A stretch of DNA of 26,261 nt from a virus: positions 1-26,261 of the IMG/VR virus record IMGVR_UViG_3300048556_000557. The stretch is one strand, 5' to 3'. A model generated the notes under the pieces. The model did no database searches, had not been told where the DNA came from, and saw nothing but the letters and a program-made list of their open reading frames with translations. Shown here in pieces: positions 865 through 25,747 of the stretch; the stretch's first letter is position 1; each line of letters starts with the position of its first letter. A program made the position numbers and the translations under genes.

Positions 865-885
865 TTTAACAACATACGGAATAAT

Positions 886-912
886 AAGGGTGGCTAAGGT
901 CACCCTTTTTTT
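886..912 (+). terminator. Rho-independent terminator abutting the next start codon
   Basis: AAGGGTG at 886-892 pairs perfectly with CACCCTT at 901-907 around an 8-base loop, and the T run continues to 912. The ATG of the next gene is at 916, three bases beyond the T run, so any transcript entering from upstream carries this hairpin over the ribosome landing site. Confidence 0.9.
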
Positions 913-1531: not shown

Positions 1532-1814
1532 AGGACGCACCGCCAAATTTTACGCTAGTAATCCTGAAGCGTATAAGAAGAAACTTGCTTATGATAAAAA
1601 ACGGAATGAGAAGCCAGCACAAAAGAAATATCGGGCGGAACTAGCTAGAGAGCGTAGAGCTAGAGGTGTTATGGGTAAAGGTGGTAAGGACGTAAGTCAT
1701 ACTGCCGACGGCAAATTTAAGATGGAAAACCCAAAAAGCAATAGGGCAAGAAATGGTCACGGCAAAAACGGTAGACTTGCTCCAGGTAAAGGTACTAAGA
1801 AATCTAAGCGGTAG
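1521..1814 (+). CDS. Small basic protein of a cyanophage-type family, unknown function
   Basis: 97 residues from GTG 1521, chosen because AGGAGG at 1508-1513 lies at good spacing upstream. About a third of the residues are Lys or Arg. It begins MAAKGRTAKFYASNPEAYKK, has a middle KKYRAELARERR helix and a VSHTADGKFKMENP segment, then an Asn/Gly/Lys-rich tail. From memory, proteins with the same order (KGRTAKFYxxNPEA, ELNxERR, DxSHTxDG) are widespread in cyanophages and usually annotated hypothetical. Its start lies inside the 3' end of the preceding small gene, implying coupling. A nucleic-acid-binding or structural role is only an inference. Confidence 0.8.
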   Translation: MAAKGRTAKFYASNPEAYKKKLAYDKKRNEKPAQKKYRAELARERRARGVMGKGGKDVSHTADGKFKMENPKSNRARNGHGKNGRLAPGKGTKKSKR

Positions 1815-1818
1815 GCAG

Positions 1819-1834
1819 ACTAGCCTAGTCATTT
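1819..1834 (+). repeat. Intergenic motif copy 1 upstream of the collagen-like gene
   Basis: ACTAGCCTAGTCATTT lies seven bases before the ATG at 1841. Including G1818 it contains a perfect inverted repeat, GACTAG and CTAGTC separated by one C. A close copy precedes the next fibre gene (2605-2619). Confidence 0.5.
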
Positions 1835-1840: not shown

Positions 1841-2599
1841 ATGGCGGTAAGGATAACCTCTGCAGAATCAATCAAGCAGGCTATTCTTGCTGATGTTTTA
1901 CTGCGTGAAATATTTGTCAAAGTACAGGTCAACCAAACAGGACTAGCACCAATTGCTTTAGGACCAAGTGTTGGTATTCTTGGTATTCCTTCAATTAGTG
2001 ATTTTGAAGCTACTTGGAAGCTTGCAATCATTGGTTTAACTAGTCTAGAATCTAAGCAAGTAGCAGATTCGCTTGAGAGAATATTTATTGGAGCGTCGTT
2101 CAAATTTTCTAATAACGACATCCAGGTTAGTATCTTTTCGCTGGCAACACGAGAAGTTTTAGAATCTGCAGAAGAACAGCAAAAATTAAAGAAAGATGCC
2201 CAGCGGTCAAAGAATCTTGAGAAGGCGATTGAATATGCTGAGAATTTAAAAAGCGGCATCGATGGCCAAAGAGGTATTCAAGGTATTGCAGGAGCAAAAG
2301 GCGAACCTGGACTACAAGGGCCACCGGGAAGAGATGGACAAGATCTTGTTGCTACTGAAGCCGAGCTTCATGACTTAAAGGATGTTTTTATTCCTGATCC
2401 AAGAGTTGGCCAGGTATTAACATGGGATGGAGCTAGTTGGGTTTCATTGTTTGTGCCACAAACGTACAGATATGCTGGAAGCGGTATAGAGGAAGCACCT
2501 AATGACGGTAATTATTATGTACGCCAAAACAAAGTTTGGATTCTGCTTTCTGAGGCATTAGGCAATACAGGTATCGAATCAGGAGACTTTGACCCGTAA
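1841..2599 (+). CDS. Collagen-like tail fibre or tail-associated protein
   Basis: 252 residues. Residues 1-105 form an N-terminal domain of unknown family, perhaps for attachment to the virion. Residues about 108-138 are a charged helical, probably coiled-coil, segment (EEQQKLKKDAQRSKNLEKAI). Residues 139-168 are ten uninterrupted Gly-X-Y triplets including GEP and GPP, a short collagen-like triple helix. The remainder has DPRVGQVLTWDGASWV, a motif common in phage fibre proteins, and a YYVRQNKVWILLSE segment. A coiled coil next to a collagen stretch implies a trimeric fibre. ATG 1841 follows the inverted repeat and has no clear Shine-Dalgarno sequence. Confidence 0.8.
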   Translation: MAVRITSAESIKQAILADVLLREIFVKVQVNQTGLAPIALGPSVGILGIPSISDFEATWKLAIIGLTSLESKQVADSLERIFIGASFKFSNNDIQVSIFSLATREVLESAEEQQKLKKDAQRSKNLEKAIEYAENLKSGIDGQRGIQGIAGAKGEPGLQGPPGRDGQDLVATEAELHDLKDVFIPDPRVGQVLTWDGASWVSLFVPQTYRYAGSGIEEAPNDGNYYVRQNKVWILLSEALGNTGIESGDFDP

Positions 2600-2604
2600 G
2601 GAAT

Positions 2605-2619
2605 ACTAGTCTAGCATTT
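2605..2619 (+). repeat. Intergenic motif copy 2 upstream of the second fibre gene
   Basis: ACTAGTCTAGCATTT matches copy 1 at 1819-1834 except for one substitution and one missing base. It ends eight bases before the ATG at 2628. The repeat occupies the same place before two consecutive fibre genes. Confidence 0.5.
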
Positions 2620-3761: not shown

Positions 3762-3777
3762 TCGGTAACCTAGTTCG

Positions 3778-8115: not shown

Positions 8116-8148
8116 TACTATGAAAACTATTACTTACAAACTAAACTA

Positions 8149-9968: not shown

Positions 9969-10008
9969 CAGCTACGGCAGCCTAAATGGGTGAATCTAAC
10001 ACTTAAAA

Positions 10009-13958: not shown

Positions 13959-14905
13959 TAGATGTCCTCCCATTTAATGCCAGTTTCTTCAAGCGACTTG
14001 ATATCTTCAGCTTTTAATCTAATAAATCTTTTTGTGCAATCGTCATTTGGATCATTCATTCTAATTTGATAATCCAATGCTTTGATGCTATCAATAAGTG
14101 CCTGTTGTTTATCATCATATTGTACAGGTTTTTCTTCTGCAGGCTTATCGTCATAAGACTCACCATCTAAATATAAATTTTCAACATTTTTCATTTTAGT
14201 GTCATTTGGACTTCCATAGCCAAAAACAGCATTGAAGTTTCTAGATGACTTGTCAACAGTTCTAGTCCAAAAATTACTTGCTTTTAAACCTCTGCAGACA
14301 GCACAGATAAATTCAGCCAACTCTTTCTTTTCCAGGCCAAGGTTTTTTAGATGCTTATTGGCGCATTCTTTTTGCTTGGTCGATAGCACTCTAATTTTTG
14401 AGAAGGTTTCAGGCTTGCAGGCATTCCAAGCTTCAATGATGATTGTCTTTTCATTAATAATTTCTTTTGGCTTTATTGTATCTTTTGTTACAGTTTTGAC
14501 CAGTTCTATCTTTTCTACAGGCTCTCCTCTGAGCTTATTGCATTCTTGGCAGATTTCGTCAGTAACAAAACGCCGAGATGTCTCATAAGCAGTCACAGGA
14601 TCATGCATTGTCACCGTTTTGCCGTCGGAACTGATTGAAATAAATCCCTCTTCTTCTAGTTGCGCCAAGCATTCACGACGATTTTTTGTACCACAGCCCA
14701 TCTTTAGCTCGCATGAATGCCAAGAAATCTGCCTGGAATTGCGTTCAGTTGAAGCCAGCCAGCACCAAAGAAGTCTTGCTTGTCCGCTTAGGCGTGAGTT
14801 GAACAATATTTCGTCAATAGGTGCCTTTATCCAGCCGGACTGAAGTTGAAAGTCAAGATCTATTTGTGCCAGTCGGCCAATTGGTGGCTTATGCCGTGGA
14901 TTCAT
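13958..14905 (-). CDS. Putative replication initiator / helicase loader with N-terminal winged-helix domain
   Basis: 315 residues on the minus strand. Residues about 20-120 look like a winged-helix DNA-binding domain: SGQARLLWCWLAS, then a recognition-helix region (GTKNRRECLAQLEEEGFISI) and a wing (SSDGKTVTM), as in RepA/O-type initiators and replisome organisers. A Cys-x2-Cys (CQEC, residues about 139-142) follows. The middle (IEAWNACKPETFSKIRVLST) and FWTRTVDKSSRNFNAVFGYG resemble the C-terminal helper domain of phage replication proteins (W-N ... F-L/W ... A-x-F-G). It is translationally coupled to the helicase and starts next to the iteron array, as expected for an initiator that binds the array and loads the helicase. 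Function is inferred from domain layout and context. Confidence 0.72.
   Translation of the reverse strand: MNPRHKPPIGRLAQIDLDFQLQSGWIKAPIDEILFNSRLSGQARLLWCWLASTERNSRQISWHSCELKMGCGTKNRRECLAQLEEEGFISISSDGKTVTMHDPVTAYETSRRFVTDEICQECNKLRGEPVEKIELVKTVTKDTIKPKEIINEKTIIIEAWNACKPETFSKIRVLSTKQKECANKHLKNLGLEKKELAEFICAVCRGLKASNFWTRTVDKSSRNFNAVFGYGSPNDTKMKNVENLYLDGESYDDKPAEEKPVQYDDKQQALIDSIKALDYQIRMNDPNDDCTKRFIRLKAEDIKSLEETGIKWEDI
13966..13971 (-). promoter_or_regulatory. Shine-Dalgarno site that fixes the helicase start
   Basis: On the minus strand GGGAGG lies seven bases before the ATG at 13958. The alternative ATG at 13973 would place this site inside the coding sequence, so the protein should begin MELPFYVQK. 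Confidence 0.75.
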
Positions 14906-14931
14906 GAAATTTTATCGATGCCTGAACGTTA

Positions 14932-15069
14932 GGGGGGTTGTCAACAGGGGGGTATCCAAGAAGGGGGGTGTCTTCAGGACAGGGTGTCCTCAGGTAACCC
15001 TAAAGGTATCCTCAGGTAACCCTAAAGGTGTCCTCAGGTAACCTTTGGGGGTGTCCTCAGGAAACCCCC
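14932..15069 (+). repeat. Iteron and G-run array, candidate replication origin
   Basis: Seven units begin with a G run followed by T-x-TC. Three have six G (14932, 14947 and 14963, every 15-16 bases). Four continue as GG(G)TGTCCTCAGG or GGTATCCTCAGG with cores starting at 14984, 15006, 15028 and 15051, spaced 22, 22 and 23 bases; the first two are followed by TAACCCTAAA, the third by TAACC. The last unit can fold as a hairpin, TGGGGGT (15046-15052) with ACCCCCA (15064-15070). The array lies between the leftward initiator gene and the rightward genes and is followed by a 50-base AT-rich stretch. Iterons next to an initiator gene and an AT-rich element are the classical layout of an initiator-dependent origin. 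That it is the origin, rather than an operator array, is inference. Confidence 0.65.
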
Positions 15070-15081
15070 ATCTATATAGAT
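15070..15081. promoter_or_regulatory. Perfect palindrome touching the -35 element, possible operator
   Basis: ATCTATATAGAT is its own reverse complement. Its last T is the first base of the -35 hexamer at 15081. A dimeric regulator bound here would block the promoter. It also forms the start of the AT-rich stretch that could melt at an origin. Confidence 0.4.
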
Positions 15082-15109
15082 TGATTTAGAAGAATAAAAG
15101 AAATAGAAT
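15081..15109 (+). promoter_or_regulatory. Sigma-70-type promoter for the rightward recombination operon
   Basis: TTGATT at 15081-15086 and TAGAAT at 15104-15109 are separated by exactly 17 bases; the -10 matches TATAAT at five of six positions. The predicted start near 15116 gives a short leader before the ATG at 15130. It reads away from the initiator gene and resembles a host-type early promoter. Confidence 0.6.
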
Positions 15110-15129
15110 TAATACAACGCGCGAGGGGA

Positions 15130-15537
15130 ATGAAAAAAGACGGCCACCGGAACAAAAAAGGAGAAACTTGGCAAGAAGCCAAGAGGAGATACAACCGGAA
15201 GTACTACAAGAAAAACCAAGACCAGCTCAAAGAGGCCCAGAAGGCCCGTGAAGCGGCCAAAAGACGCGCTCAGGTACTACGACAAGAAAAAGCGAAGAAA
15301 GCTCGCCTACAGGGCCTTGCAAAGGGCAGAGAGGTGCAAAAGAAAAAACAAGAAAAATGGGATGAGCTAGGCGTTATCGTCGCAAGAATGAACTTGCACG
15401 CCGGATTAAGCCAAAAAGAGATCTTCAGGATCCTGCAAGGATTGGCCAGTAGTCGTCAGATTTCTCAATGGATTGCAAGAGGCAAAAAGACTGTTAGGTT
15501 GAAAAGACCAACAGACAATTCTTCAAAAAATGGCTGA
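15130..15537 (+). CDS. Very basic helical protein with C-terminal helix-turn-helix-like segment
   Basis: 135 residues starting MKKDGHRNKKGETWQEAKRR. Residues about 10-80 are almost entirely Lys, Arg, Glu, Gln and Ala, predicted as a long charged helix or coiled coil. Residues about 90-120 (NLHAGLSQKEIFRILQGLAS, then SRQISQWIARGK) look like a helix-turn-helix (LSQKEIFRIL-x(5)-SSRQISQWI), as in small terminase or regulator DNA-binding heads. It is first after the origin candidate and promoter, so a DNA-binding regulator or replication accessory is plausible. GAGGGG ends only one base before the ATG, too close for a normal Shine-Dalgarno site. No family recognised. Confidence 0.65.
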   Translation: MKKDGHRNKKGETWQEAKRRYNRKYYKKNQDQLKEAQKAREAAKRRAQVLRQEKAKKARLQGLAKGREVQKKKQEKWDELGVIVARMNLHAGLSQKEIFRILQGLASSRQISQWIARGKKTVRLKRPTDNSSKNG

Positions 15538-16201
15538 TCTACCGAATCTCAAAGGTGTTGCAACTCAAGATTTAGTTGAGACAATCGGGAGCGGTCGCTT
15601 TCAGGCCAGTTACATCAACTGGAGCCGGACGATGCAGCTGTTCCGCGAAAATGCCAGTGGATGGACCGTTGAAGCTGTATTTAATGTTGACGGCACACTT
15701 CTCCATCGCGCTCCAGTCGGTGGCTATTTATTGCTGCGACTTCGTCATTTAGATGGAACTAAGACTCCTGAAGTCCCTCAGGCAATCATGGACAACCGCA
15801 ACCAATCGATTGCGTATGACAAAATCACTGCGCGAGACATCACTGATACACATCGCCGGGGTTCCTGCTTAGTCCTTGCATTCCAGACAGGATTGGCCCA
15901 TGAGCTATGGGCGAAGATGCCTCTTGAGAATGGTTATCAAGTAGCGGATGACCAGGAGATTAAGCAGGTAAAGTCCCAGTCGACGACGACGAAGTCTGCT
16001 TCGGCCACTGCGGAGGTTGCCAAGGCGTCTAAGAAAGACTTTGTGGCTATCGCTGAAAAGATGGGTTTAGTGGAGCCTGCCATTAAGTCTTTGATGGCGA
16101 AAGTTGATGACAACTTCGATGTTGGTATCAAGACTCTTAAGTCAAAGGACAAAGATTTTGTTTTGAAACTGAACGAGTCCTTTCAAGCCAGTGGTTACTA
16201 A
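15530..16201 (+). CDS. Single-strand annealing recombinase, DUF1071 (Sak3)-like
   Basis: 223 residues, overlapping the upstream gene by eight bases. ASYINWSRTMQLFRENASGW, VGGYLLLRLRHLDG, EVPQAIMDNRNQSIAYDKIT and ARDITDTHRRGSCLVLAFQT follow the order of DUF1071/Sak3 proteins (an L-S/N-W motif early, strand pairs, a conserved M-D-x-x-N, then a D-x-x-x-x-x-R helix with a GLA or GLG end). The C-terminus (residues 140-223) is a low-complexity Ser/Thr/Ala/Lys linker plus a helical tail, as in other annealing proteins. It would anneal complementary single strands during phage recombination with SSB, the exonuclease at 19012 and RusA. The assignment rests on remembered motif order. Confidence 0.65.
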   Translation: MADLPNLKGVATQDLVETIGSGRFQASYINWSRTMQLFRENASGWTVEAVFNVDGTLLHRAPVGGYLLLRLRHLDGTKTPEVPQAIMDNRNQSIAYDKITARDITDTHRRGSCLVLAFQTGLAHELWAKMPLENGYQVADDQEIKQVKSQSTTTKSASATAEVAKASKKDFVAIAEKMGLVEPAIKSLMAKVDDNFDVGIKTLKSKDKDFVLKLNESFQASGY

Positions 16202-16271
16202 CCCTGACTGGGAAATTAATGACGCCGCGCAAAGTATTGCTTTGTTCTTTAGCGGTGTAATCGTTAAATAA
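16191..16271 (+). CDS. Possible 26-residue protein overlapping the recombinase gene
   Basis: A GTG at 16191, overlapping the recombinase stop by 11 bases, opens a 26-codon frame beginning MVTNPDWEINDAAQSIALFF and ending at TAA 16271. The peptide has plausible composition, with a hydrophobic end. It fills the space between the recombinase and the terminator at 16286. It is too short to judge by composition alone. Confidence 0.3.
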   Translation: MVTNPDWEINDAAQSIALFFSGVIVK

Positions 16272-16285
16272 ATTCACTAATAGAC

Positions 16286-16309
16286 AAAGGGGTTGACACC
16301 CCTTTTTTT
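16286..16309 (+). terminator. Rho-independent terminator abutting the sigma factor gene
   Basis: AAAGGGGT at 16286-16293 pairs perfectly with ACCCCTTT at 16298-16305 around a TGAC loop, and the T run extends to 16309. It ends the recombination operon. The best start of the next gene, TTG 16311, lies two bases downstream. Confidence 0.9.
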
Positions 16310-16310
16310 A

Positions 16311-17156
16311 TTGACTAAAATTTATGAAGTTAGTTATTTACCAGTGTCAAGCCAGAAGAATATAATTGACTTTTGGCTTGATCAAGCCGGTAGGTTCCCT
16401 TTGCTACCTAAGGCTGAAGTCTTGCGATTAGCCAAAATTATTCAAAACCCAAAATCATCGAAAGTAGCAAGGGAAAGAGCAATACAAAAATTGATTCGCC
16501 ATAATCTAAAGCTGGTTCCTGGCATTGCAAAACGCATGACTGGTTCTATGAGGAGCTTCCGCCATGGTGATCATTGCTTGGCTGACTTGTTCCAGGTAGG
16601 CGCGATTGGTCTAAGGAGAGCAGCAGAAAAATTTGATCCGCAAAGAGGTTATACGTTTAGCACCTATGCAGTTTCATGGATCAAGCAGGCAATTTATCGT
16701 GAGGCTTATGGCATGATTTCACCAATTCGTGTTCCAGAAAGCACGCTCCGAGATTACTACGATCACGAAAAAAGCAAGGAGTCTGGCGATGCTCCTGTCT
16801 TAACAGCAAGGAAAAGAGATCGTCTTGAGGATGCTTTCTTCGCTATGAATTGTATAAGTTTTGACGTTCCACACAATAATGACGAAGATAGTGATTTTCA
16901 CCAATTGATTGCGTCAAAAGTCTATAAAGTGGCCAAGCCACGGATGACTTTCGATCAAATCATATCTAAAGCTTTTCTTAGTGATTTCCAAAAGAAAATA
17001 CTGTATATGAAATATATGGAGAATTACTCTGCCTCGCAGATCGCAGAAGAGACTGGAGACAAGGTCAGCAAGGTTCGTGACCATTTGAAAAGATCATTGA
17101 AATTAATTAGGAGAGAAGGGATGTATAATGAGGAAGTAAATCCCCTTTTGGGTTAA
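16311..17156 (+). CDS. Sigma-70 family RNA polymerase sigma factor, RpoD-like (sigma 1)
   Basis: 281 residues if it starts at TTG 16311; an earlier TTG at 16293 falls inside the terminator stem and is unlikely, and a GTG at 16344 is another option. Residues 18-46 (DFWLDQAGRFPLLPKAEVLR) match region 1.2 of primary-type sigma factors. Residues about 59-144 are region 2: HNLKLVPGIAKRM, then DLFQVGAIGLRRAAEKFDPQ and YTFSTYAVSWIKQAIYREAY. In E. coli RpoD the equivalent is STYATWWIRQAITRA; the phage has SW for WW and Tyr at the RpoD T440 position, so -10 recognition may be altered. Region 3 is shortened. Residues about 223-269 are region 4, with the helix-turn-helix YSASQIAEETGDKVSKVRDH. It should redirect host RNA polymerase to phage promoters. 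SSB follows three bases later. Confidence 0.85.
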   Translation: MTKIYEVSYLPVSSQKNIIDFWLDQAGRFPLLPKAEVLRLAKIIQNPKSSKVARERAIQKLIRHNLKLVPGIAKRMTGSMRSFRHGDHCLADLFQVGAIGLRRAAEKFDPQRGYTFSTYAVSWIKQAIYREAYGMISPIRVPESTLRDYYDHEKSKESGDAPVLTARKRDRLEDAFFAMNCISFDVPHNNDEDSDFHQLIASKVYKVAKPRMTFDQIISKAFLSDFQKKILYMKYMENYSASQIAEETGDKVSKVRDHLKRSLKLIRREGMYNEEVNPLLG

Positions 17157-17159
17157 TCA

Positions 17160-17507
17160 ATGGCTTCTATCAGCCTCTCTGGCAAAATTACCGGCAAAAA
17201 GTCGGAGCCTGCAGTGACATTGCGTCAAGCAGGAGAAATTTCTATTGCTGAATTCTCAGTACTAGATTCTGATTATGCATACTTCAAAAACAGGGACGAC
17301 AATCCTGGTCAGTTCTACAAGGTGCAAGTCGTAGGTAAAAATACTGACTGGTTATCTGAGAACTTGACCCATGGAAGCAAGGTCACTGTTCATGGCCAGC
17401 CTGTCTGGCGTGAATACAACGGACAAAAGATTTTGGACGTTAAGAATGCTCGAGTAGTCTCTATGGACGATAGGAAGCCTGCAGCCGAAAGCAGCTCGCT
17501 GTTCTAA
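17160..17507 (+). CDS. ssb: Single-stranded DNA-binding protein
   Basis: 115 residues with an OB-fold pattern: MASISLSGKITGKKSEPAVT, ISIAEFSVLDSDYAYFKNRD, FYKVQVVGKNTDWLSENLTH, GSKVTVHGQPVWREYNGQKI and LDVKNARVV. The order, conserved aromatic and Gly positions and total length fit a bacterial-type SSB domain with almost no linker. The C-terminus (ESSSLF) keeps a terminal Phe but lacks the acidic DDDIPF tip that recruits host partners, so host interactions may be reduced. The gene lies three bases after sigma 1 and is followed by a terminator, so the pair seems to form one unit. Confidence 0.85.
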   Translation: MASISLSGKITGKKSEPAVTLRQAGEISIAEFSVLDSDYAYFKNRDDNPGQFYKVQVVGKNTDWLSENLTHGSKVTVHGQPVWREYNGQKILDVKNARVVSMDDRKPAAESSSLF

Positions 17508-17548
17508 TCCTTTATGGATTCTAACTACAATCCTTCTTGTCTCTGTTT

Positions 17549-17579
17549 GGGGGTTGTTATTGCAGCCTCCACTTTTTTT
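17549..17579 (+). terminator. Probable terminator after ssb
   Basis: GGGGGTTG at 17549-17556 pairs with CAGCCTCC at 17563-17570 around a six-base loop, with two G-U wobbles, and seven T follow at 17573-17579. It separates the sigma-SSB pair from the next genes and explains the 101-base gap. Confidence 0.65.
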
Positions 17580-17608
17580 GTCCCAATTTTTATGGTGATA
17601 GATAGGCC

Positions 17609-18064
17609 ATGGACCCAAAATACTACGTCAGCGGAGCTGTTGGACCTTTCATCGACGAAACACCAATTGTCTCTCACGCCAATATCAAGCCCTACATTAT
17701 TGCAATTCTTTTGCACAGGGGAGCTGTCACCTTCGGAGAAGTGCTTGCTTGTATAGCACCACACTGTGCAGACGTTGATACTAAGATTGGCTTATGGGAT
17801 GGTCTAGAGAATTATCACGTTCAAGATAGGAACAGGCTAGAGATTTTAATAGAAGAAGTTTTAGGTGAAATGGTCTCTGGTGGTGTTTTGAGGTATAATA
17901 ATGAGCAAGACCTTTGGGTTTTATCTGTAGGCGAAAACCACAGGAACGTCCCTACGATAATCAACTGGGTCTCGGCTACAGGAGCACAGATGCCTCATCA
18001 TGTCATCCTGGAAATGTCTCAAGATGAAATTATCCGGTCTAACAAAACACATGCACACCACTGA
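17609..18064 (+). CDS. Hypothetical protein, possible winged-helix domain
   Basis: 151 residues beginning MDPKYYVSGAVGPFIDETPI. Residues about 28-110 have an order suggesting a winged helix: a helix (IKPYIIAILLHRGAVTFGEV), a second helical region (RNRLEILIEEVLGEMVSGGV) and a wing-like strand pair (LRYNNEQDLWVLSVGE). The C-terminal 40 residues are less structured and His-rich. There is no metal or catalytic motif. It is first in the unit after the ssb terminator and could be a regulator, but that is inference; I do not recognise the family. The large upstream-overlapping frame at 17514 is rejected because it runs through the terminator. Confidence 0.65.
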   Translation: MDPKYYVSGAVGPFIDETPIVSHANIKPYIIAILLHRGAVTFGEVLACIAPHCADVDTKIGLWDGLENYHVQDRNRLEILIEEVLGEMVSGGVLRYNNEQDLWVLSVGENHRNVPTIINWVSATGAQMPHHVILEMSQDEIIRSNKTHAHH

Positions 18065-18290
18065 AATTACTAGCACCAAAAAAGCTGAACTTGAAGTGAT
18101 TGCTTGGATGAACAAGTCTCCTCATCCGATGCCTGTATTCAGTCATGATGAGATCGTTTATGTTTTAAGGAAGACTGCTTGGCATAAAGCGAGAGTAATT
18201 ACTAGTTCACAAAACGGTTGCCAGTTACAATTAGTAGAGAGTAAAGAAGCGTTCAATCTTTATGATGCAAGATGTATCCGGCCGGCTTGA
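18051..18290 (+). CDS. Small hypothetical protein, SH3-like pattern
   Basis: 79 residues from ATG 18051, preferred over the ATG at 18000 because it reduces the overlap with the previous gene from 65 to 14 bases. Residues about 28-79 (VFSHDEIVYVLRKTAWHKAR, then VITSSQNGCQLQLVESKEAF and NLYDARCIRP) form a five-strand pattern with the G-x-V-Y ... W-x-x-A-x-V-x ... Y/F spacing of small SH3- or Tudor-like barrels. Such domains bind proteins or nucleic acids. No partner is evident. It overlaps the following gene by 29 bases. Confidence 0.6.
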   Translation: MHTTEITSTKKAELEVIAWMNKSPHPMPVFSHDEIVYVLRKTAWHKARVITSSQNGCQLQLVESKEAFNLYDARCIRPA

Positions 18291-18630
18291 GATAGCAGCT
18301 GTTTGCGACGACATTAAAGAGTTGTTGCTTGAGAAAAATGCCAAGTACGGCAACAGTGCTTTGAATCCAGTAAGGATTTTTAGTGGAGATTCAACTATCA
18401 GCCAATTGCTAGTCAGAATTGATGACAAGCTAAGCAGGATTAAAAGAGGTGCTGGCTTACTGGCGGCAGACGAGGATGTCATCAATGACTTGATTGGCTA
18501 CTTGGTGCTTCTCAAAGTTGCAATGAAAAGAGAGAACACACTTCAAGTTGAATATGATCAAATACTTGACTTTGCTTTTTTAGATGAAGAGCCGATCCAA
18601 TGGCAGCAGTATCGCAACACTGACATATGA
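18262..18630 (+). CDS. DUF1599-like protein (nucleotide modification associated domain 1)
   Basis: 122 residues starting with two Met codons. LLLEKNAKYGNSALNPVRIF, LVRIDDKLSRIKRG and DEDVINDLIGYLVLLKVAMK match, from memory, the DUF1599/Nmad1 pattern (K-x-x-YG-x-x ... I-x-x-R-x-x-D-K-x-x-R-x ... E-D-x-x-x-D-L-I-G-Y). This all-helical family resembles MazG-type NTP pyrophosphohydrolases and is found in phages with nucleotide metabolism genes; its exact reaction is not firmly established. It overlaps RusA by four bases (ATGA). A role in the nucleotide pool or in modified nucleotides is inferred from family and from ThyX and the reductase downstream. Confidence 0.72.
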   Translation: MMQDVSGRLEIAAVCDDIKELLLEKNAKYGNSALNPVRIFSGDSTISQLLVRIDDKLSRIKRGAGLLAADEDVINDLIGYLVLLKVAMKRENTLQVEYDQILDFAFLDEEPIQWQQYRNTDI

Positions 18631-18980
18631 ATTATCCAGAAATCGTTCTGCCAATCAAGCTAATGTCAAAGGCACGTCCTAGAGTTACTAGGAATGGCAC
18701 ATATATGCCTAAGCCTTATCAAGATTGGCGTAAAGAATGCAGTAACCTACTAAAAAATGCTTGGGACTTAGAACCAATTGACCATCCTATTTCCGTTGAG
18801 ATTGAGTGTTATGGCACTGCTCGTGGCGACATCGACAACTACATGGGAGCATTGTTCGATACGGCCAACAAAATCTTGTGGGTCGACGACCGCGCTTCCA
18901 TCATCCAGAAGGCATCAATCTCGTACTTCAAGAGGCCAACAGCAGAGAGTTGCTGGAAGATCCGTATCTATGACTTATAG
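18627..18980 (+). CDS. rusA: RusA-like Holliday junction resolvase
   Basis: 117 residues, the usual RusA length. LPIKLMSKARPRVTRNGTYM at the N-terminus and ARGDIDNYMGALFDTANKIL, then WVDDRA, give the family signature: D68-x-D70-N, D78, and D87-D88 in the DDR motif. These acidic residues coordinate metal for cutting branched DNA. The enzyme would resolve recombination and replication intermediates before packaging. It is coupled to the preceding gene by an ATGA overlap and precedes the exonuclease gene. Confidence 0.88.
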   Translation: MNYPEIVLPIKLMSKARPRVTRNGTYMPKPYQDWRKECSNLLKNAWDLEPIDHPISVEIECYGTARGDIDNYMGALFDTANKILWVDDRASIIQKASISYFKRPTAESCWKIRIYDL

Positions 18981-19011
18981 CTAAGTTAGATTGAAGGTAG
19001 TAAGTTTTTTC

Positions 19012-19893
19012 ATGCAATCCTCTGACGTAGAGATTTGCTATCTGCAGGCTGACCCTGAATATAGAAAAGCAAGAGGGCAAAGTCAGTCACATTTAAAGAC
19101 TATTCTTAGGAGCCCTGCTCATTACGTTAGTGCTGGTAAGCACGGATTGATTCCGTCCCCTGCGATGATTATGGGCACAGCCGTGCATTGCAAGCTTTTA
19201 GAAGGAGAAGATACTTTTGCTGCACAATTCACGCAACGCCCTGAAGGCATTAAGTTCACTACAAAAGAGGGCAAAGATTGGAGAGCTGCTAATAGCAAGA
19301 AAAGGATTCTTACTAACGACGGTAGAGATCGCCAGTGGGACTCTGTAGTTGGCATGGTCGATGCCTTACGAGGCTTGGAATGGTTTGACACTAGTCTGCA
19401 AGACTATCGTAAGTACAACGAAGTTTCCATCTACTGGAACGACGATAATATTGCCTGCAAGGCAAGGCTTGACCGTGTTATTCCATTAGAAAACGAAACA
19501 TTGGTCCTTGACCTTAAAACTACTGATAACATTTCGCCGGCAAAGTTTCAATCAAAGCTAGTCGATCTTGGTTACGACTTTCAGGCTGCTTGGTATTCTC
19601 ATGCGGCTGAAATTGCCTATGGCAAGCCAGTGCGGTTTATCTTTGTTGCAATTGAAAGAAGTGCTCCATACACTATTGACTTTTTTGAGGCTCCAAGGTA
19701 CATGATCAATGAAGCACGATACAAGAATCAAAAAGCACTAAGAATCCTTAAGGAGTGCAAGGAGAAGAATGAGTGGCCCACTCGACAGCCAAGCTTGAAA
19801 CTAGTAGATTATCCGAAGTGGTACACACCTGTCCCCCGCGATGATCAGCCCCTTGTCACCAACAAAAAAGATGGATTCGTACCGCTCTTCTGA
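19012..19893 (+). CDS. PD-(D/E)XK exonuclease, RecE / DUF3799-like
   Basis: 293 residues from ATG 19012; a TTG at 18991 would add seven residues, but the ATG start gives the usual N-terminus. QSHLKTILRSPAHYVSAG and MIMGTAVHCKLLEG (with its conserved His) match the N-terminal half of RecE-like phage exonucleases. Asp154 (ARLDRVI) and Asp167-Leu-Lys169 (LVLDLKTTD) form the PD-(D/E)XK site, and LGYDFQAAWY follows as the typical Q-x-x-x-Y helix. It would resect double-stranded ends to give single strands for the annealing protein at 15530. It overlaps thyX by 23 bases. Confidence 0.82.
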   Translation: MQSSDVEICYLQADPEYRKARGQSQSHLKTILRSPAHYVSAGKHGLIPSPAMIMGTAVHCKLLEGEDTFAAQFTQRPEGIKFTTKEGKDWRAANSKKRILTNDGRDRQWDSVVGMVDALRGLEWFDTSLQDYRKYNEVSIYWNDDNIACKARLDRVIPLENETLVLDLKTTDNISPAKFQSKLVDLGYDFQAAWYSHAAEIAYGKPVRFIFVAIERSAPYTIDFFEAPRYMINEARYKNQKALRILKECKEKNEWPTRQPSLKLVDYPKWYTPVPRDDQPLVTNKKDGFVPLF

Positions 19894-20521
19894 TTGCAGG
19901 CTTGTATGGATCACTCCAGACGCCGAGGAAATGATTGCCTATCTGGCAAGAGTTTCTAATCCCACTAATCAAAACAGTAAAGAAACAGCGCCTAAGTTAA
20001 TTCGCTATTTGATTAAGCATAGCCATTGGTCGCCATTTGAAATGGCTACAATGTGCGTAGAAATTAATACAACCCGTGCTATCGCACAGCAAATTATACG
20101 CCATCGAAGCTTTTCGTTCCAGGAATTTTCTCAAAGATATTCTGATGTAGGGCAGCTTGGTGATTCAATTATTCCTCATCTTCGCCGGCAAGACAAAAGC
20201 AATAGGCAAAATTCAATTAATGATTTAAGGCAGGAGGAAGTTGGTGGTTTTTATCGTAGAATTAGCGAGTTGTTTGAGGATTCTGAGCATCTTTACAAAG
20301 AGATGGTTAGTTCTGGTATTGCCAAAGAATGTGCAAGGGCTGTATTGCCTTTAAATACACGTACACGTTTATATATGAGTGGCACAGTTCGCTCATGGAT
20401 TCATTATTTAGATATCAGAGCTAGTCCTGAAACTCAACTAGAACATCGTCAAGTTGCTGAAGATGTTTTAACTATTTTTGAACAAGAGATGCCTGATGTT
20501 TACGAAGCTGCTTTTACCTAA
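19871..20521 (+). CDS. thyX: FAD-dependent thymidylate synthase
   Basis: 216 residues from ATG 19871 (MDSYRSSDCRLVWI); an earlier ATG at 19841 would increase the overlap with the exonuclease. The ThyX signature R-H-R-x(7)-S-x-R-Y is present as RHRSFSFQEFSQRY (residues 77-90), and HWSPFEMATM (residues 52-61) is the second conserved block. RSWIHYLDIR, followed by ASPETQLEHRQVAEDV, is the C-terminal dUMP/FAD-binding region. It makes dTMP from dUMP with methylenetetrahydrofolate and NADPH, supporting phage DNA synthesis when host pools are limiting. ThyX is common in cyanophages. Confidence 0.95.
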   Translation: MDSYRSSDCRLVWITPDAEEMIAYLARVSNPTNQNSKETAPKLIRYLIKHSHWSPFEMATMCVEINTTRAIAQQIIRHRSFSFQEFSQRYSDVGQLGDSIIPHLRRQDKSNRQNSINDLRQEEVGGFYRRISELFEDSEHLYKEMVSSGIAKECARAVLPLNTRTRLYMSGTVRSWIHYLDIRASPETQLEHRQVAEDVLTIFEQEMPDVYEAAFT

Positions 20522-20553
20522 AACGGTATCCTAGCCCGATTTAGAGTGTAAGA

Positions 20554-21138
20554 GTGGCCATCCATTGTTATGATTTTAGGCGTGGGTATGAAGTCAAGCC
20601 GCGTTACGGAAAGCATGAGTCTGCTGATCAGTACTCTGCATTTCAAAATTATTTGCATATGGGTGGCCAGCGGACCCATGACCCTGTAGCTAAAATCTTC
20701 AAGGTTGACCCGCAAACCATCAAGAATTGGGCAAAAAAATATAACTGGGAGAAGCGTGCAGCGCAGTGGGATAAAGAACAAATCGCTTTAACTTGGAAGG
20801 ATGCAGAAAAGATTCGAGAGCAAAAGCATAAAAGATCCATTGTTGAGTTCAGGGATGCGTCTGAACGGCAGGCAAGGATGATGATGGAAATCTCGGAGGA
20901 TCTTTTAGGAGTCTTAACTAAGCGAGTTAAGGACGCCCAGGACCAAGGGGAAGAAGTGCCATTACCACTTGTCTCAGGACTCTTGCGTGCTACTGCAAAC
21001 ATCACAGAGCAGTCCCGTCAGGCTTGGGCTTCAGCTCTAGGTGTTGAAGATATGCTCCAACTAGTTGAGCAAGAGCTTGATAGAGTACAGGTAGAGGAAC
21101 TTGATGAAGACGAGGATGAAATTATTATCGATGAATAA
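20554..21138 (+). CDS. terS: Terminase small subunit
   Basis: 194 residues from GTG 20554. HDPVAKIFKVDPQTIKNWAK, then KYNWEKRAAQWDKE, has the helix-turn-helix of terminase small subunits (VA-x-x-x-x-V-x-x-x-T-x-x-x-W-A-x-x-x-x-W-x-x-R). The remainder is helical, presumably for oligomerisation, and the last 20 residues are strongly acidic (EELDEDEDEIIIDE). The protein recognises the packaging site and regulates the large subunit, whose gene follows after one small gene. The order ThyX, terminase small, small gene, terminase large within a replication-type cluster is noted as a finding. Confidence 0.8.
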   Translation: MAIHCYDFRRGYEVKPRYGKHESADQYSAFQNYLHMGGQRTHDPVAKIFKVDPQTIKNWAKKYNWEKRAAQWDKEQIALTWKDAEKIREQKHKRSIVEFRDASERQARMMMEISEDLLGVLTKRVKDAQDQGEEVPLPLVSGLLRATANITEQSRQAWASALGVEDMLQLVEQELDRVQVEELDEDEDEIIIDE

Positions 21139-21283
21139 TGCCCCATTGATTATTGTGCAACAGCAAGACGACGGTACATTTGTTCTGGAATGGGACGAAA
21201 ATGATCCACGTTGTGAGGAATTTAAAGACTGGACTGAAGCGGACTGGATCGAAGCAATAGAAAATGGATTAGCAAAATTTTAA
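21131..21283 (+). CDS. Small acidic protein between the terminase subunits
   Basis: 50 residues from ATG 21131 (MNNAPLIIVQQQDDGTFVLE), overlapping the small terminase gene by eight bases. A longer start at 21101 would overlap by 38 bases and add residues of odd composition. The sequence is very acidic, with WDENDPRCEEFKDWTEADWI and then EAIENGL. The pattern strand, strand, WDxxDP, then helix is seen, from memory, in small proteins beside cyanophage terminases. Its stop touches the ATG of the large terminase. It may be a packaging partner; no function is shown. Confidence 0.65.
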   Translation: MNNAPLIIVQQQDDGTFVLEWDENDPRCEEFKDWTEADWIEAIENGLAKF

Positions 21284-22807
21284 ATGGCACAGAAACTAGG
21301 AAAAGATTATTTGCGTAAATCAGCGCAAAATCAAGCGATGCTTAAGGCATTGCGAGATAAGAAGCTGCAGTCAAAAGAGAAGGGAGATAGAATATTGCTC
21401 CATAAATTTATTAAAGAAGTTTATCCAAATTATAAATTTTATAAGTTTCACGCAACATTAATCAAGCAGCTACAGCGAATCATTGATGGAGATTGCAATC
21501 GATTGATCTTGCAAGTCCCTCCTCGAAGCGGAAAGAGTCTTTTGAGTTCAGTTTTATTGCCAGCGGCATATCTACAGGCGCATCCTGATCGTTTTGTAGG
21601 TATTTCTTCTTACTCAGCAGAGCTAAGTCAAGGTTTTTCTCGGAAGGCACGAGATTTTTACCGCGATGGCGGTGGTCAATTAGATCCCTCGCAGCAAGCA
21701 GTCAACGCTTGGGGCACGCAAGGCGGTGGTGGATTATGGGCAGCTGGTGTTGGAGGCGCAATCACTGGTCGTTCAGGTCACTTGCTGATCATCGATGACC
21801 CTGTTAAGAACAGAGAAGACGCTGAGAGCCAGCGGATGATGGACAAGCTTTGGGATTGGTATGCATCAACGCTATACACACGTCTTGAGCCAGAAGCAGG
21901 AGCAATCGTTGTAATTCAAACGCGATGGTCTGAAAATGACATGATTGGTCAGCTACTAGAGAACGAAAATAACGTATCTGAGAAGGGTCGAGAGAACTGG
22001 ACGATTGTTGACCTTCCGGCATTGTTTGAGGATGAAGGAAGTCGTCCAAAGCTTCCAGAGCACTGCGAAACGATCCTGGATTGGCGTACAGAGGAAGGGC
22101 AAGCATTATGCCCGCAAAGGTATGACGAAGACGATTACGAGCGCATCAGAGAGGCCATCGGGACTAGAGAATTTGCCTCTTTGTTTCAGCAGCGTCCTGC
22201 TCCAGAAGGGGGCAACATGTTCGATCCCACTTGGTGGCAATACTATTCGCATGATTCTGTAATTCCTGATTTCGACAGAGTGATCTTGTCGATTGACTGT
22301 ACGTTTACTGACGCGAAGAACAGTGACTATGTCGTGGGCCTAGTTGTTGGTCAATCTGGTCCATCGTTTTATGTGCTCGATTTGTTTAGAGAAAAAACTG
22401 ATGTTATTGGAACGATGAATATGATCGCCAGAATGTATAAGCGTCATCAGCTTGACGGAACAGTCATTGAGCTTGCAGCTAGTGGCTATGCGGTATATCA
22501 GATGGCAAGAAAGAAAGTTCCTGGCTTAATTGGCTTTAGACCAGAAAAAAGCAAGCAAGCTCGTGCTGCAGGCATCGTCCCAGTAGTTGAGGCTGGAAAT
22601 GTATACTTGCCGATTAGCACACCATGGCTTGATAATTTTGTAAGTGAATTTTCCTTGTTCCCTGCATCAAAAAATGACGACCAAGTCGATGCATTGACTA
22701 TGGCTATTAATTATTCACTGCAACGTGTACCTCCGCAAATGACAGAAGTTACGTGGGGACGTGGAGATAGAGTAATAGAAGGAGTAAAAAGTTTCAACAT
22801 CTGGTGA
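21284..22807 (+). CDS. terL: Terminase large subunit (ATPase and nuclease)
   Basis: 507 residues, starting immediately after the previous stop. ATPase domain: Walker A QVPPRSGKS (residues 77-85), Walker B LLIIDDP (167-173), and coupling motif IQTRWSENDM (211-220). Nuclease domain (RNase H fold): Asp338 in ILSIDCTF, a second acidic residue near Glu396 (TVIELAASG) and ASKNDDQVDALTMAI with Asp466/Asp469. It powers DNA packaging and cuts concatemers. Length and motif order match complete TerL proteins; no intein or frameshift is seen. It lies far from the capsid gene in this window and is followed directly by a second sigma factor. Confidence 0.95.
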   Translation: MAQKLGKDYLRKSAQNQAMLKALRDKKLQSKEKGDRILLHKFIKEVYPNYKFYKFHATLIKQLQRIIDGDCNRLILQVPPRSGKSLLSSVLLPAAYLQAHPDRFVGISSYSAELSQGFSRKARDFYRDGGGQLDPSQQAVNAWGTQGGGGLWAAGVGGAITGRSGHLLIIDDPVKNREDAESQRMMDKLWDWYASTLYTRLEPEAGAIVVIQTRWSENDMIGQLLENENNVSEKGRENWTIVDLPALFEDEGSRPKLPEHCETILDWRTEEGQALCPQRYDEDDYERIREAIGTREFASLFQQRPAPEGGNMFDPTWWQYYSHDSVIPDFDRVILSIDCTFTDAKNSDYVVGLVVGQSGPSFYVLDLFREKTDVIGTMNMIARMYKRHQLDGTVIELAASGYAVYQMARKKVPGLIGFRPEKSKQARAAGIVPVVEAGNVYLPISTPWLDNFVSEFSLFPASKNDDQVDALTMAINYSLQRVPPQMTEVTWGRGDRVIEGVKSFNIW

Positions 22808-22833
22808 TAAAATGTGTCATAAGAGTAATTATT

Positions 22834-23454
22834 ATGGCACGGAAAGCAAAGAAGTTCAAGTTAAGCAAGGAGCAGCAATTGCTTGCTACAGAGAATATAA
22901 ACCTTGCGCGAAGAGAGGCATGGAAGTTACAAAGAACCACAGACATTGATTACGACACCTTGGAAGGTGCAGCACTAGAAGGGTTGTGTAAAGCCGCTTA
23001 TCGCTACAACCCAGAATCTGGATTCAAATTCAGCAGCCTTGCGGTGCCAACAATACGAGGAGAACTACTTCACTGGATCCGCGATAGAACTTACGCAATG
23101 AGACTGACCCATAAGATGCGTGAAAAGTGGATTAAGGGTAGACGCCTCATGTATCGAGGCATGAATGATCTAGATGTAGCAAAAGAACTGGAAATTCCTA
23201 TCTCTGAATGGCAAGAGATTAAAAGCGTTTGCTCTGGTCCACCACTTGAGATTAATGACCACGCTAGTCCGACGGACAGCCTTGAGCCTGATGAGATCAA
23301 TTTTGCTGAGCAATTTAAGGTTCGCGCTGAACATTCATGGAATCTTTTGAATCCAAAGCACAAAAAGTTGATTTTGGATTATTTTTGTAGTAAAACGAAT
23401 AACTTGCCTGTCGAGTCAATAGACGAATTTTTATATAACTACACAAATGGCTAA
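22834..23454 (+). CDS. Second sigma-70 family factor, SigB/SigF-like, with short C-terminus (sigma 2)
   Basis: 206 residues from ATG 22834; an in-frame GTG at 22804 would add ten unusual residues overlapping terL. Residues about 20-86 are region 2: ALEGLCKAAYRYNPESGFKF and SSLAVPTIRGELLHWIRDRT, the order seen in group 3 factors such as SigF/SigB (FSSYAVPTIxGExxRxxRD). Residues about 87-131 resemble region 3 (KMREKWIKGRRLMYRGMNDL, DVAKELEIPISEWQEI). The last 38 residues start like region 4 (LLNPKHKKLILDYFCSKTNN), but the helix-turn-helix that would read the -35 element is missing. It differs clearly from sigma 1 and is probably used at another stage of infection. Confidence 0.82.
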   Translation: MARKAKKFKLSKEQQLLATENINLARREAWKLQRTTDIDYDTLEGAALEGLCKAAYRYNPESGFKFSSLAVPTIRGELLHWIRDRTYAMRLTHKMREKWIKGRRLMYRGMNDLDVAKELEIPISEWQEIKSVCSGPPLEINDHASPTDSLEPDEINFAEQFKVRAEHSWNLLNPKHKKLILDYFCSKTNNLPVESIDEFLYNYTNG

Positions 23455-23540
23455 ATATTAGCGCAAGTCTTAAAAGAATTGGTTGACCATCATCATAACA
23501 ACTACCGGTCTATAGCCTGTGCTCGATTTGGCGACCATTA
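23455..23540 (+). other. In-frame continuation of sigma 2 beyond its stop
   Basis: After TAA 23452-23454 the same frame stays open for 28 codons (including VLKELVDHHHNNYRSIACAR) and stops at TAG 23538-23540, the base before the primase GTG. No terminator and no convincing promoter were seen here: TTGACC at 23483 lacks a -10 at proper spacing. It may be the lost end of sigma 2, a readthrough tail or a spacer. Confidence 0.4.
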
Positions 23541-25112
23541 GTGTCAGTATCTCAAGAGACAATTAGAAAGCTTAAGTCTTTAGCTGTATCAGACGTACTG
23601 CAGAATGATGGCACCTACTTAAAAAGGGTTGGCAGGGAATTCGTAACCCAATGCTTATGGCATGAAGATCGAAATCCTTCTCTGACTGTCAGTGACGACA
23701 AAGGCTTTGTTTTTTGCCACGTTTGCCAGCATCATGACGATGCAATTGGATTCATAGCTCAAAAGCATGGAATTACATTCGCTGAAGCATGTGAAAAAAT
23801 TGGTACCGCAAGCAATATTACTGTTGAGCACACAAATGAGAACAAGGAAGAGGTATCAAAAAAGAAAAAAATTCGCCAAGAAGCTATTGATGCTGTCGCT
23901 GAAATGCAAAACCAGTATCGGCAAGACCTGCAAGTGCATAGCGAATCGACTGATTTTCTGAAAGAACGCGAGATATTGCCAGAAACATCAAGGTTTTTTG
24001 GTTTTGGATATGATTTGAAGCAAAAACGTATCACTCTTCCTATAAGTAATCATGTAGGAAATCATGTTGGCTTTGTTGCTAGAACTATTATTAAAGATGT
24101 AAAACCAAAGTATAAAAATACTGAAAATAATGCAATCTTTAATAAGTCAGACATTGTTTTTAACGAATATCGAGCTGCTGAACACATACGTTCTGCAGAT
24201 GAATGTATATTTGTTGAAGGCCACTTGGATGTTGTATCGCTTTGGCAGTCAGGCATAAAGAACGTTGTTGCATTGCAAGGTACTGCATCACCTTCTGAAA
24301 ATGTTTTAAGAAGGATGATCAGAAAAACAAAAAGATTTGTGCTTTGTATGGACTCTGATGCCGGCGGTGTAAAGGCTATTAGTAAGTTCCTCGACACTGT
24401 CAAGAGCTATACCTTGCAGGGCGAATTAGATGTACGCATTGCAGTACTGCCTGACGGCATGGATCCAGACGATTTTATAAAAAGTGGCGGGCAACTCTCT
24501 ACTTTAATATCAAACGCTCAGTCATGGCTTGACTGGATTTTAGATCAATGGCTAAACAGTCTTGACTTTAAGGATGAGCTAAAAATTCAAGAAGTAGAAA
24601 AGCATATTAAAGATTTATTTTCTCAAATCAGTAGTCCAGCTCTTCGATCACACTATTATGACAAGGCGTCTATTCGCTTAGCACAAAACAAGCAATCGTT
24701 AGCAGCAGAAATATCTAAGGGCTTTCATGATTTTAAAACTTCTTCTGTAAAAATAAAGACTTGGACCAAGCCTGATTTTGAACATACCAGGAAGATTGTT
24801 GAAAGAAGATTGCTCCGCCTTTATATTCATAATGTTGAATTTAGATGGATACTAGAGCCATTGATGCAACAGCTTTACTTCCCGCAAATGAAGTGGTTAT
24901 GGCGCAGGATAGAGGAGGTTCAAAAACATACAGATAATGATTTTAGTCACCATGCTTTGATGGCAATTTTATGCAGTGCAGAACCAGTGTATATGCAAAC
25001 ATTACGATCAATTGTTTGCCCTTCAATTTCTGTAGAAGACAGCGAACTTTCTATTGCTCATATTGAAACTGTAATGACAATTATTCCTGAAAATTATGCA
25101 TTACAATCGTAA
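23541..25112 (+). CDS. dnaG: DnaG-type DNA primase
   Basis: 523 residues from GTG 23541. CHC2 zinc finger: C38-L-W-H41 ... C59-H-V-C62, in REFVTQCLWHEDRNPSLTVS and FVFCHVCQHHDDAIGF. The catalytic core includes FGFGYD and ITLPISN, then Toprim E226 in CIFVEGHLDV, D271-x-D273 in VLCMDSDAGG and LPDGMDPDDFIKSGG. This is the usual order in DnaG. The C-terminal 200 residues are helical and would contact the helicase. It makes RNA primers for the lagging strand with the DnaB-type helicase at 12222. The two genes lie on opposite sides and strands of the origin candidate. Confidence 0.93.
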   Translation: MSVSQETIRKLKSLAVSDVLQNDGTYLKRVGREFVTQCLWHEDRNPSLTVSDDKGFVFCHVCQHHDDAIGFIAQKHGITFAEACEKIGTASNITVEHTNENKEEVSKKKKIRQEAIDAVAEMQNQYRQDLQVHSESTDFLKEREILPETSRFFGFGYDLKQKRITLPISNHVGNHVGFVARTIIKDVKPKYKNTENNAIFNKSDIVFNEYRAAEHIRSADECIFVEGHLDVVSLWQSGIKNVVALQGTASPSENVLRRMIRKTKRFVLCMDSDAGGVKAISKFLDTVKSYTLQGELDVRIAVLPDGMDPDDFIKSGGQLSTLISNAQSWLDWILDQWLNSLDFKDELKIQEVEKHIKDLFSQISSPALRSHYYDKASIRLAQNKQSLAAEISKGFHDFKTSSVKIKTWTKPDFEHTRKIVERRLLRLYIHNVEFRWILEPLMQQLYFPQMKWLWRRIEEVQKHTDNDFSHHALMAILCSAEPVYMQTLRSIVCPSISVEDSELSIAHIETVMTIIPENYALQS

Positions 25113-25696: not shown

Positions 25697-25724
25697 CTGA
25701 CAAACAGTAAGACTGCGGTAAACT
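25697..25724 (+). promoter_or_regulatory. Weak promoter candidate upstream of the reductase
   Basis: CTGACA at 25697-25702 and TAAACT at 25719-25724 are 16 bases apart and match the sigma-70 consensus partially. The reductase ATG is at 25748. CGGTAA (25716-25721) and TTACCG (25729-25734) form an inverted repeat overlapping the -10 region. Confidence 0.35.
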
Positions 25725-25747
25725 ATTCTTACCGTCACCAAGGCGAA

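Follow-up and report, generated by a model that had tools for sequence, protein, structure and literature searches.

Two sigma-70 family factors and a candidate late promoter motif without a -35 element in a viral genome and its phage relatives

The stretch of DNA analysed here, from a virus of cyanobacteria (IMG/VR record IMGVR_UViG_3300048556_000557, positions 1–26,261; hereafter "the window", 26,261 nucleotides (nt) in full) encodes two members of the sigma-70 family, an RpoD-like factor (sigma 1, 16344..17156, plus strand) and a SigF-like factor (sigma 2, 22834..23454, plus strand). On balance we find it probable that the two act one after the other to redirect the host RNA polymerase, in a switch in which sigma 1 is expressed from a host-type promoter and sigma 2 serves as a late factor that reads a motif consisting of a -10 element only, working in a manner similar to gp55 of phage T4. 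According to this proposal, sigma 1 would be made from a promoter with -35 and -10 elements in an early or middle phase, as far as can be judged from sequence. Sigma 2, in which the part that reads the -35 element appears to be gone or reduced, would recognise TAGG[A/C/T]AN[A/C]CTA about 21 nt before virion genes, a ribonucleotide reductase gene and terS, the gene for the small terminase subunit. Since sigma 2 is located behind terS and terL (large terminase subunit), with the motif before terS, the site of this cluster would also allow sigma 2 to raise its own output. In a branch of relatives with a long C-terminal tail, an end of sigma 2 with a clamp-binding pattern would tie late transcription to replication via the clamp of the host, much like the coupling of gp55 to gp45 in T4. 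We infer that the motif is a promoter and that sigma 2 is its reader, and likewise the timing and the clamp contact; the link to replication is put forward as a hypothesis for the long-tailed relatives only.

The motif was obtained by expectation-maximisation on 160 stretches upstream of plus-strand genes in S-CBS2, S-CRES1 and S-CRES3, with the window kept out of the training set. The unsupervised search returned TAGG[A/C/T]AN[A/C]CTA, estimated to be present in 62% of the stretches, with a log-likelihood gain of 310 compared with 124 for coding stretches. Sites scoring at least 9.5 bits, sought 5–60 nt before the start codons in the three genomes, number 74 and have a median distance of 21.5 nt to the start, the middle half being confined to 19–23.75 nt. 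Upstream of these candidate sites, no column between -60 and -10 exceeds 0.12 bits, hence no -35 signal is seen in the three relatives; the small signals that do occur lie directly beside the motif, with 0.23 bits at -9, where chance would allow up to 0.14. Among the tabulated sites, a set selected by score, A-11 and T-7 never vary; these are the two key bases of a -10 element.

The motif carries over to genomes in which it was not learned. In the held-out window, a site of at least 10 bits is found 14–32 nt upstream at 6 of 82 starts of open reading frames (ORFs), whereas 200 column-permuted motifs reach 0.3 starts on average and never more than 2. By the same test, six unseen records gave 12, 13, 9, 9, 17 and 6 starts, numbers reached by 0, 0, 0, 0, 0 and 1 of 200 permutations, respectively; the first of these records (G001) is a near-identical relative of the window. 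S-CBS3, KBS-S-2A and S-CBS4 gave 0, 1 and 0 starts. These three phages have no sigma 2 match and carry the motif at 1 of 28, 1 of 45 and 0 of 54 plus-strand genes, respectively; the distant P-SS2, with a sigma 2 just 42% identical to that of the window, carries it at 8 of 108 (80000–89999 of P-SS2 and 50001–69420 of S-CBS4 are left out of the counts). When the motif search was made afresh in each genome, the same motif was recovered in the window and in five of six other records, with a weak and different motif in G027. The best site reaches at least 10 bits in 53 of 72 terS stretches of 1 kb, training genomes and near-copies included, and in 3.1% of 1257 reverse-strand stretches of the same length.

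The highest-scoring sites of the window stand before structural-region genes and before terS. The terS site, ACGGTATCCTA (20523..20533; this and the following sites are all on the plus strand), lies 20 nt from the gene at the head of the terS-terL-sigma 2 cluster and scores 12.6 bits with the motif learned in the other genomes. Further late-promoter-like sites are TAGGCAGACTA (1812..1822; 13.3 bits), 18 nt before the gene at 1841; AAGGAATACTA (2598..2608; 13.8 bits), 19 nt before the gene at 2628; TCGGTAACCTA (3762..3772; 13.0 bits), at the longer distance of 53 nt before the gene at 3826; ACGGCAGCCTA (9974..9984; 11.1 bits), 24 nt before the gene at 10009; and GCGGTAAACTA (25715..25725; 9.9 bits), 22 nt before the ribonucleotide reductase gene. 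Two weaker sites are TATGAAAACTA (8119..8129; 9.3 bits), 19 nt before the gene at 8149, and ACGGAATAATA (876..886; 8.4 bits), 29 nt before the gene at 916.

The candidate reader of these sites, sigma 2, was described in the initial annotation as a SigF/SigB-type factor that has regions 2 and 3 but a reduced region 4, and the reduced region 4 is borne out. The 206-residue protein, characterised by Pfam, NCBIfam and PHROG searches, a family alignment and a structure model, matches Pfam sigma region 2 at 1.1e-5 (25.6 bits; cut-off 24), the NCBIfam model for SigF (PRK07408) over residues 17–132 at 5.4e-22 (78.7 bits, below the cut-off of 261), and PHROG 36098 at 1.4e-72. No Pfam region 4 match was found in the window protein. 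In the alignment used for Pfam and modelling, which holds 50 of the distinct relatives, region 2 is recognised in 50 of 50 proteins and region 4 in a single one, at an E-value of 0.16; the 50 invariant columns all fall within residues 15–154, and the remainder of the chain is divergent. The AlphaFold model of sigma 2 (mean predicted local distance difference test score (pLDDT) 82.5, predicted template modelling score (pTM) 0.43) contains the helices of regions 2 and 3 and a loose linker. In comparisons made with Foldseek and VIA-align, sigma chains match sigma 2 either over the whole chain with a large root-mean-square deviation (rmsd), or on region 2 (and 3), and for region 2 the match is clear, with for instance an rmsd of 1.2–2.0 Å over 74–77 residues. 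In our reading, the C-terminal part is a sigma 4 domain that has been reduced and no longer has a complete helix-turn-helix.

The sigma 2 gene is preceded by terL (21284..22807, plus strand; Pfam Terminase_6C, 2.4e-19; 76% identical to terL of S-CBS2) and followed by a DNA primase gene (23541..25112, plus strand; Pfam DnaG zinc ribbon, DNAG_N and Toprim), and terS (20554..21138, plus strand) was assigned from its place, a gene order as in S-CBS2 and S-CRES, and a weak NCBIfam TerS match. A scan of genome contigs, made with short conserved patterns that would miss an ordinary SigF, yielded one sigma 2 relative. This sole relative from the genome collection (L121, contig DGOV01000074.1) is filed under a proteobacterial metagenome-assembled genome, and is perhaps a misbinned phage.

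As for sigma 1, Pfam region 2 (PF04542, 3.2e-14) and region 4 (PF08281, 3.6e-6) are both matched above their cut-offs. With region 2 recognised in both proteins, the window does contain two distinct sigma-70 family factors, as first annotated. The best cellular subfamily for sigma 1 is the cyanobacterial RpoD/SigA (87.7 bits, below the curated cut-off of 384.5). The protein had been taken for an RpoD-type factor with regions 1.2, 2 and 4, of which regions 2 and 4 are supported by Pfam. Comparison with PDB sequences makes region 1.2 alignable with SigA from residue 19 and indicates a region 3.2-like stretch, but the Pfam model for region 1.2 matches just 2 of 38 members of the sigma 1 family, and the window protein is not among them. 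The counterparts in four reference phages are poorly conserved, at 24–31% identity. We place the start of the 270-residue protein at GTG 16344 by comparison with relatives. The earlier choice of TTG 16311 is less likely, because this codon is located between TTGACA (16293) and TAAAAT (16316), and because the relatives begin at the later of the two points.

In the numbering of Escherichia coli RpoD, W434 and Q437 are kept in sigma 1 of the window, W433 is replaced by Ser and T440 by Tyr, and the paired Trp residues thus read Ser-Trp. Both substitutions had been pointed out initially, as a possible sign of a different -10 preference, and are borne out. In a census of 49 distinct sequences, that of the window included, W434 is present in 49, W433 in 1, Q437 in 32 and T440 in 3, and Tyr occupies position 440 in 5; since the T440 change is one among many variants at that position, it says little alone.

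Sigma 1 is preceded by a host-type promoter-like element (16293..16321, plus strand) in which TTGACA (16293–16298) and TAAAAT (16316–16321) are separated by 17 nt, with 11 of 12 matches. This element is the best of 22 promoter-like sites in 14900–26261, where 20.5 are expected by chance, so there is no overall excess of such sites. The corresponding sequences are TTGACA-18-TATACT in S-CBS2 and TTGACA-17-CATAAT in S-CRES1, and two near-identical relatives (L008 and L009) have the same arrangement as the window. Elements with at least 11 of 12 matches are found in 5 of 44 loci, three of the five being the window and its near-copies. Taken together, these sequences give moderate support for a host-type promoter before sigma 1. 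When 94 upstream stretches that do not carry the late motif were searched for a further promoter motif, of a sigma 1 type, just weak TATACT-like signals emerged, and no class could be assigned to sigma 1.

The differing transcription contexts of the two genes, as first described, are confirmed. A terminator scan, which gave 19 terminator-like sites in the scanned stretch against 9.3 expected, places hairpins upstream of sigma 1 (16286..16306) and after the downstream ssb (17548..17571), the gene for a single-strand DNA binding protein (17160..17507; Pfam SSB, 4e-7; all plus strand), so that sigma 1 and ssb are flanked by terminator-like hairpins; sigma 2 is located between terL and the primase gene. 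At 16286–16321 of the window, the -35 element of sigma 1 lies inside the terminator hairpin of the preceding gene, and inspection by eye shows a comparable overlap in S-CBS2. As to the cascade with different promoter sets that was suggested at the outset, the idea of two sets is partly supported, i.e., the host-type TTGACA/TAAAAT before sigma 1 and the -35-less motif before late genes and terS, and the pairing of each factor with a class and the order in time are what we would propose from them.

The pair of sigma factors is a standing trait of the lineage, and ordinary there. A translated search placed sigma 2 relatives in 13 phage records, of which eight cover at least 80% of the protein (S-CRES1-3, two for S-CBS2 and three for P-SS2). 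The window, S-CBS2, S-CRES1 and S-CRES3 share a gene order with the RpoD-like factor beside ssb and the SigF-like factor after terL, and P-SS2 also has the pair, with one factor beside ssb and the other beside terL. In IMG/VR, 92 sigma 2 relatives were found, of which 80 were analysed. Among 50 of these taken as whole records, region-2 matches number two in 43 and one in 7, and in each of those 7 the sequence available ahead of sigma 2 is shorter than 9 kb. Both sigma factors are encoded on 55 of 86 stretches, and sigma 1 is present wherever a stretch extends 9 kb or more ahead of sigma 2.

The novelty of the pair, argued initially from the view that most sigma-carrying phages have one such factor, does not hold in view of this census and of earlier work. 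P-SS2 was reported in 2009 to have group 2 and group 3 sigma factors, for which canonical sigma-70 promoters and a special promoter set, respectively, were proposed, and the authors suggested that the factors modulate the host polymerase (PMC2784084). Both genes are annotated in S-CBS2 and S-CRES as well, and the phages SPO1 and SP10 have three sigma factors each (PMC9429907). What looks new is the anatomy of sigma 2 without region 4, the -35-less late motif and the clamp-like tail; none of the three was found described in the portion of the literature covered, the S-CBS2 and S-CRES genome papers lying outside this search. No phage-record DNA close to 16000–26261 of the window was found.

The C-terminal tail of sigma 2 is a feature in which the relatives differ among themselves. 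The 85 sigma 2 loci correspond to 72 distinct proteins, or 69 when the cut-off sequences L049, L079 and L087 are excluded, and the ending Q..[LIVM]F is present in 37 of these 69 complete proteins. With the proteins sorted by tail length regardless of the motif, the ending is found in 35 of 37 long tails, in 2 of the 6 of medium length and in none of the 26 short ones. In the long-tailed proteins the pattern is Q-x-x-[L/V]-F, which is of the bacterial beta-clamp-binding type, with QL(S/D)LF as the C-terminal consensus (PMC9690074). The last 22 residues of a long form have pLDDT values mostly below 50, and the long tail is probably disordered. A search for the bacterial-type clamp gene (PF02768) in 15 of the 50 whole records returned 0 of 15, so the host clamp would be the partner. 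In the sigma 2 tree the ending requires three changes, and the window falls within a supported 14-row branch without it; a tether is therefore unsupported for the window phage. The deposited S-CBS2 sigma 2 (L003:20833-21620) is shorter than its closest relatives, and the conserved long-form end is present just downstream in another frame, which reflects either a real change or a sequencing error.

Outside sigma 2, the ending occurs in 7 of 4267 distinct ORFs (at least 80 residues, stop to stop) in the examined loci. By place and sequence, five of the seven are RusA resolvase-like and one is primase-like, and the seventh (L007) is antisense to annotated replication genes. The endings are QEPLF, QETLF or QEDLF in the RusA-like proteins of S-CBS2, L037, L040, L059 and L063 (ORFs like L072:5233-5640), and QQALF in the primase-like ORF (L028:1897-3567); from these sequences, both types may be regarded as further candidate clamp-binding proteins. 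The RusA-like protein of the window is without such an ending. A substitute clamp-binding protein in the branch of the window was considered and rejected, as none of the seven ORFs is located in the window or in L008-L023.

Several observations weigh against the switch as proposed. The window shows no plain excess of the motif: GGMATMCTA with one mismatch occurs 17 times where 16.2 are expected, and at 8 bits the forward matches amount to 19 against 14.3 by chance, so that the signal in the window resides in the position of the sites, not in their number. A small number of genes beyond the virion region are also preceded by sites, as in S-CBS2, where a match of 10.1 bits overlaps the TATACT of the sigma 1 promoter. 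A host-type promoter of at least 10 of 12 matches before sigma 1 is found in just 16 of 44 loci (shuffled mean, 8.0). As for sigma 2, the C-terminus of the AlphaFold model forms three confident helices (157–205; whole-model pTM as given above), the structural alignments that extend to sigma region 4 have an rmsd near 16 Å and are uninformative on this part, and other helix-turn-helix families match weakly in one sigma 2 relative each (GerE, 0.016; HTH_31, 0.018); some region-4 function may be left in the protein. The clamp pattern, finally, is missing from sigma 2 of the window as from every other short tail.

A different assignment of the factors, which we judge unlikely, would let sigma 1 read the late motif, with sigma 2 serving other promoters or helping; in that case the decay of region 4 in sigma 1 would account for the absence of a -35 element. 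Region 4 is indeed fading in the sigma 1 lineage, being recognised at E ≤ 0.01 by PF04545 in just 10 and by PF08281 in 6 of the 38 aligned proteins, window included. Because sigma 1 is also losing this region, the lack of a -35 element does not single out sigma 2, and with W433 lost in 48 and T440 in 46 of the 49 sequences, the -10 preference of sigma 1 has probably shifted. Furthermore, in one branch the terS site reads AATA instead of CTA, and sigma 1 has Ser for Q437; sigma 1 may have a role at these sites. A co-change of motif and sigma factor across branches was dropped as an explanation, since fresh searches in G016 and G028 of the AATA branch gave the CTA form; G027, with its weak and different motif, was the third record searched in that branch. 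On the other side, S-CBS3 and KBS-S-2A have a sigma 1-related factor and no sigma 2 match, and the motif is scarce in both. The motif is moreover unchanged across genomes, P-SS2 included, that differ in sigma 1 at Q437 and T440, the residues that read the -12 base, and this constancy favours sigma 2 as the reader, as does the GG before the -10 element, which suits a SigF-type factor. Taken as a separate claim, we consider it likely that sigma 2 reads the motif.

The same sites could be given a role other than that of a promoter, as translation or RNA-processing elements, or operators, of late genes, with both sigma factors acting elsewhere. The unusually fixed distance between motif and start codon at the 74 sites is what a translation-linked element would show. 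However, the end of the motif, about 20 nt before the start, is too distant for a Shine-Dalgarno sequence, its fixed bases fit a -10 element (A-11 and T-7) and the GG signature of SigF, and the motif is hardly present in the three cyanosiphoviruses without sigma 2, which makes this explanation quite improbable. It is still harder to believe that the factors chiefly redirect host genes, with the choice of phage promoters being secondary. Expression of the S-CBS2 RpoD did change growth and acetyl-CoA in Synechococcus elongatus PCC 7942 (Sawa 2019, as relayed in a 2023 review, PMC10452541), but the late-gene motif accompanies the presence of sigma 2 in the compared genomes, and the two-factor arrangement is a constant feature of the lineage.

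Some features of the window lie apart from the sigma factors. The segment 14931–15071, which separates the minus-strand replication genes from those on the plus strand, contains a 12-nt inverted repeat and direct repeats in which a 22-nt unit (GGTGTCCTCAGGTAACCCTAAA and variants) occurs four times at a spacing of 22–23 nt; the repeats could be a replication origin or an operator. No RNA families (at the gathering threshold) and no tRNAs were found in the window. In the structural regions of S-CBS2 and P-SS2, gp034 and gp085, respectively, are annotated as RNA polymerase-like.

Among known systems, P-SS2, S-CBS2, S-CRES1 and S-CRES3 have the same two genes in the same places as the window, and their late motif is also present in the window. 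In the available text of the P-SS2 account (PMC2784084) we found neither the loss of region 4 nor a late motif lacking a -35 element nor a tail of the clamp-binding kind. Unlike its long-tailed relatives, the window falls in a branch with short tails, from which the tail pattern is missing. The sigma factors of the Bacillus phages SPO1 and SP10 use promoters with a -35 element, and no clamp link is known for them; the hosts are also different. They resemble the present pair in that there are several sigma factors per phage, acting in middle and late phases (PMC9429907).

Cyanobacterial SigF reads TAGGC (-32) and GGTAA (-12), and activates its own gene (PMC2758279). It is represented by the best curated match of sigma 2 (PRK07408), and regions 2 and 3, a GG-type -12 element and the self-activation proposed here for sigma 2 are points of likeness. 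In the phage motif the GG-H-A core is kept, but the upstream part is gone, and no -32 element is seen at the sites. Sigma 2 further differs from SigF in its score, well below the family cut-off, and in having no recognisable region-4 helix-turn-helix.

The late sigma factor of T4, gp55, has a clamp-binding epitope at its end, behind a divergent linker, and T4 late promoters are without a -35 element (PMC2988020, PMC7892883). Sigma 2 is similar in having region 2 and, according to sequence profiles, no -35-reading helix-turn-helix, the three C-terminal helices of the model notwithstanding. The clamp-binding pattern after a variable linker in the long-tailed proteins adds to the resemblance, as would the candidate late sites without a -35 signal in the three relatives, should they be promoters. 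In contrast to gp55, sigma 2 is SigF-like with a region 3 and has no membership in the gp55 family, and its motif is GG-type and not of the T4 type. Sigma 2 of the window also lacks the C-terminal clamp pattern. Furthermore, the bacterial-type clamp, the only clamp domain sought, was found in none of the 15 records, and the host clamp would have to take the place of gp45. A counterpart of the T4 coactivator gp33 was not identified either, though no search was aimed at one. It is tempting to suggest, with more doubt than conviction, that independently of T4 a SigF-derived sigma factor lost its -35 reader and took up a GG-type, -10-only promoter, that in most long-tailed members a clamp-binding end docks the polymerase on the host DnaN, and that the branch of the window keeps the promoter system without the tether. 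In the parts of the literature consulted, no account was found of late-gene timing in siphoviruses of marine cyanobacteria; the present findings supply a list of promoter candidates, a protein that may read them and a possible tie to replication, and culturable isolates exist (S-CBS2, S-CRES). If the clamp link is true, T4-style coupling of late transcription to replication arose twice, with different sigma factors and the second time with the host clamp, and the purpose of such coupling becomes open to study.

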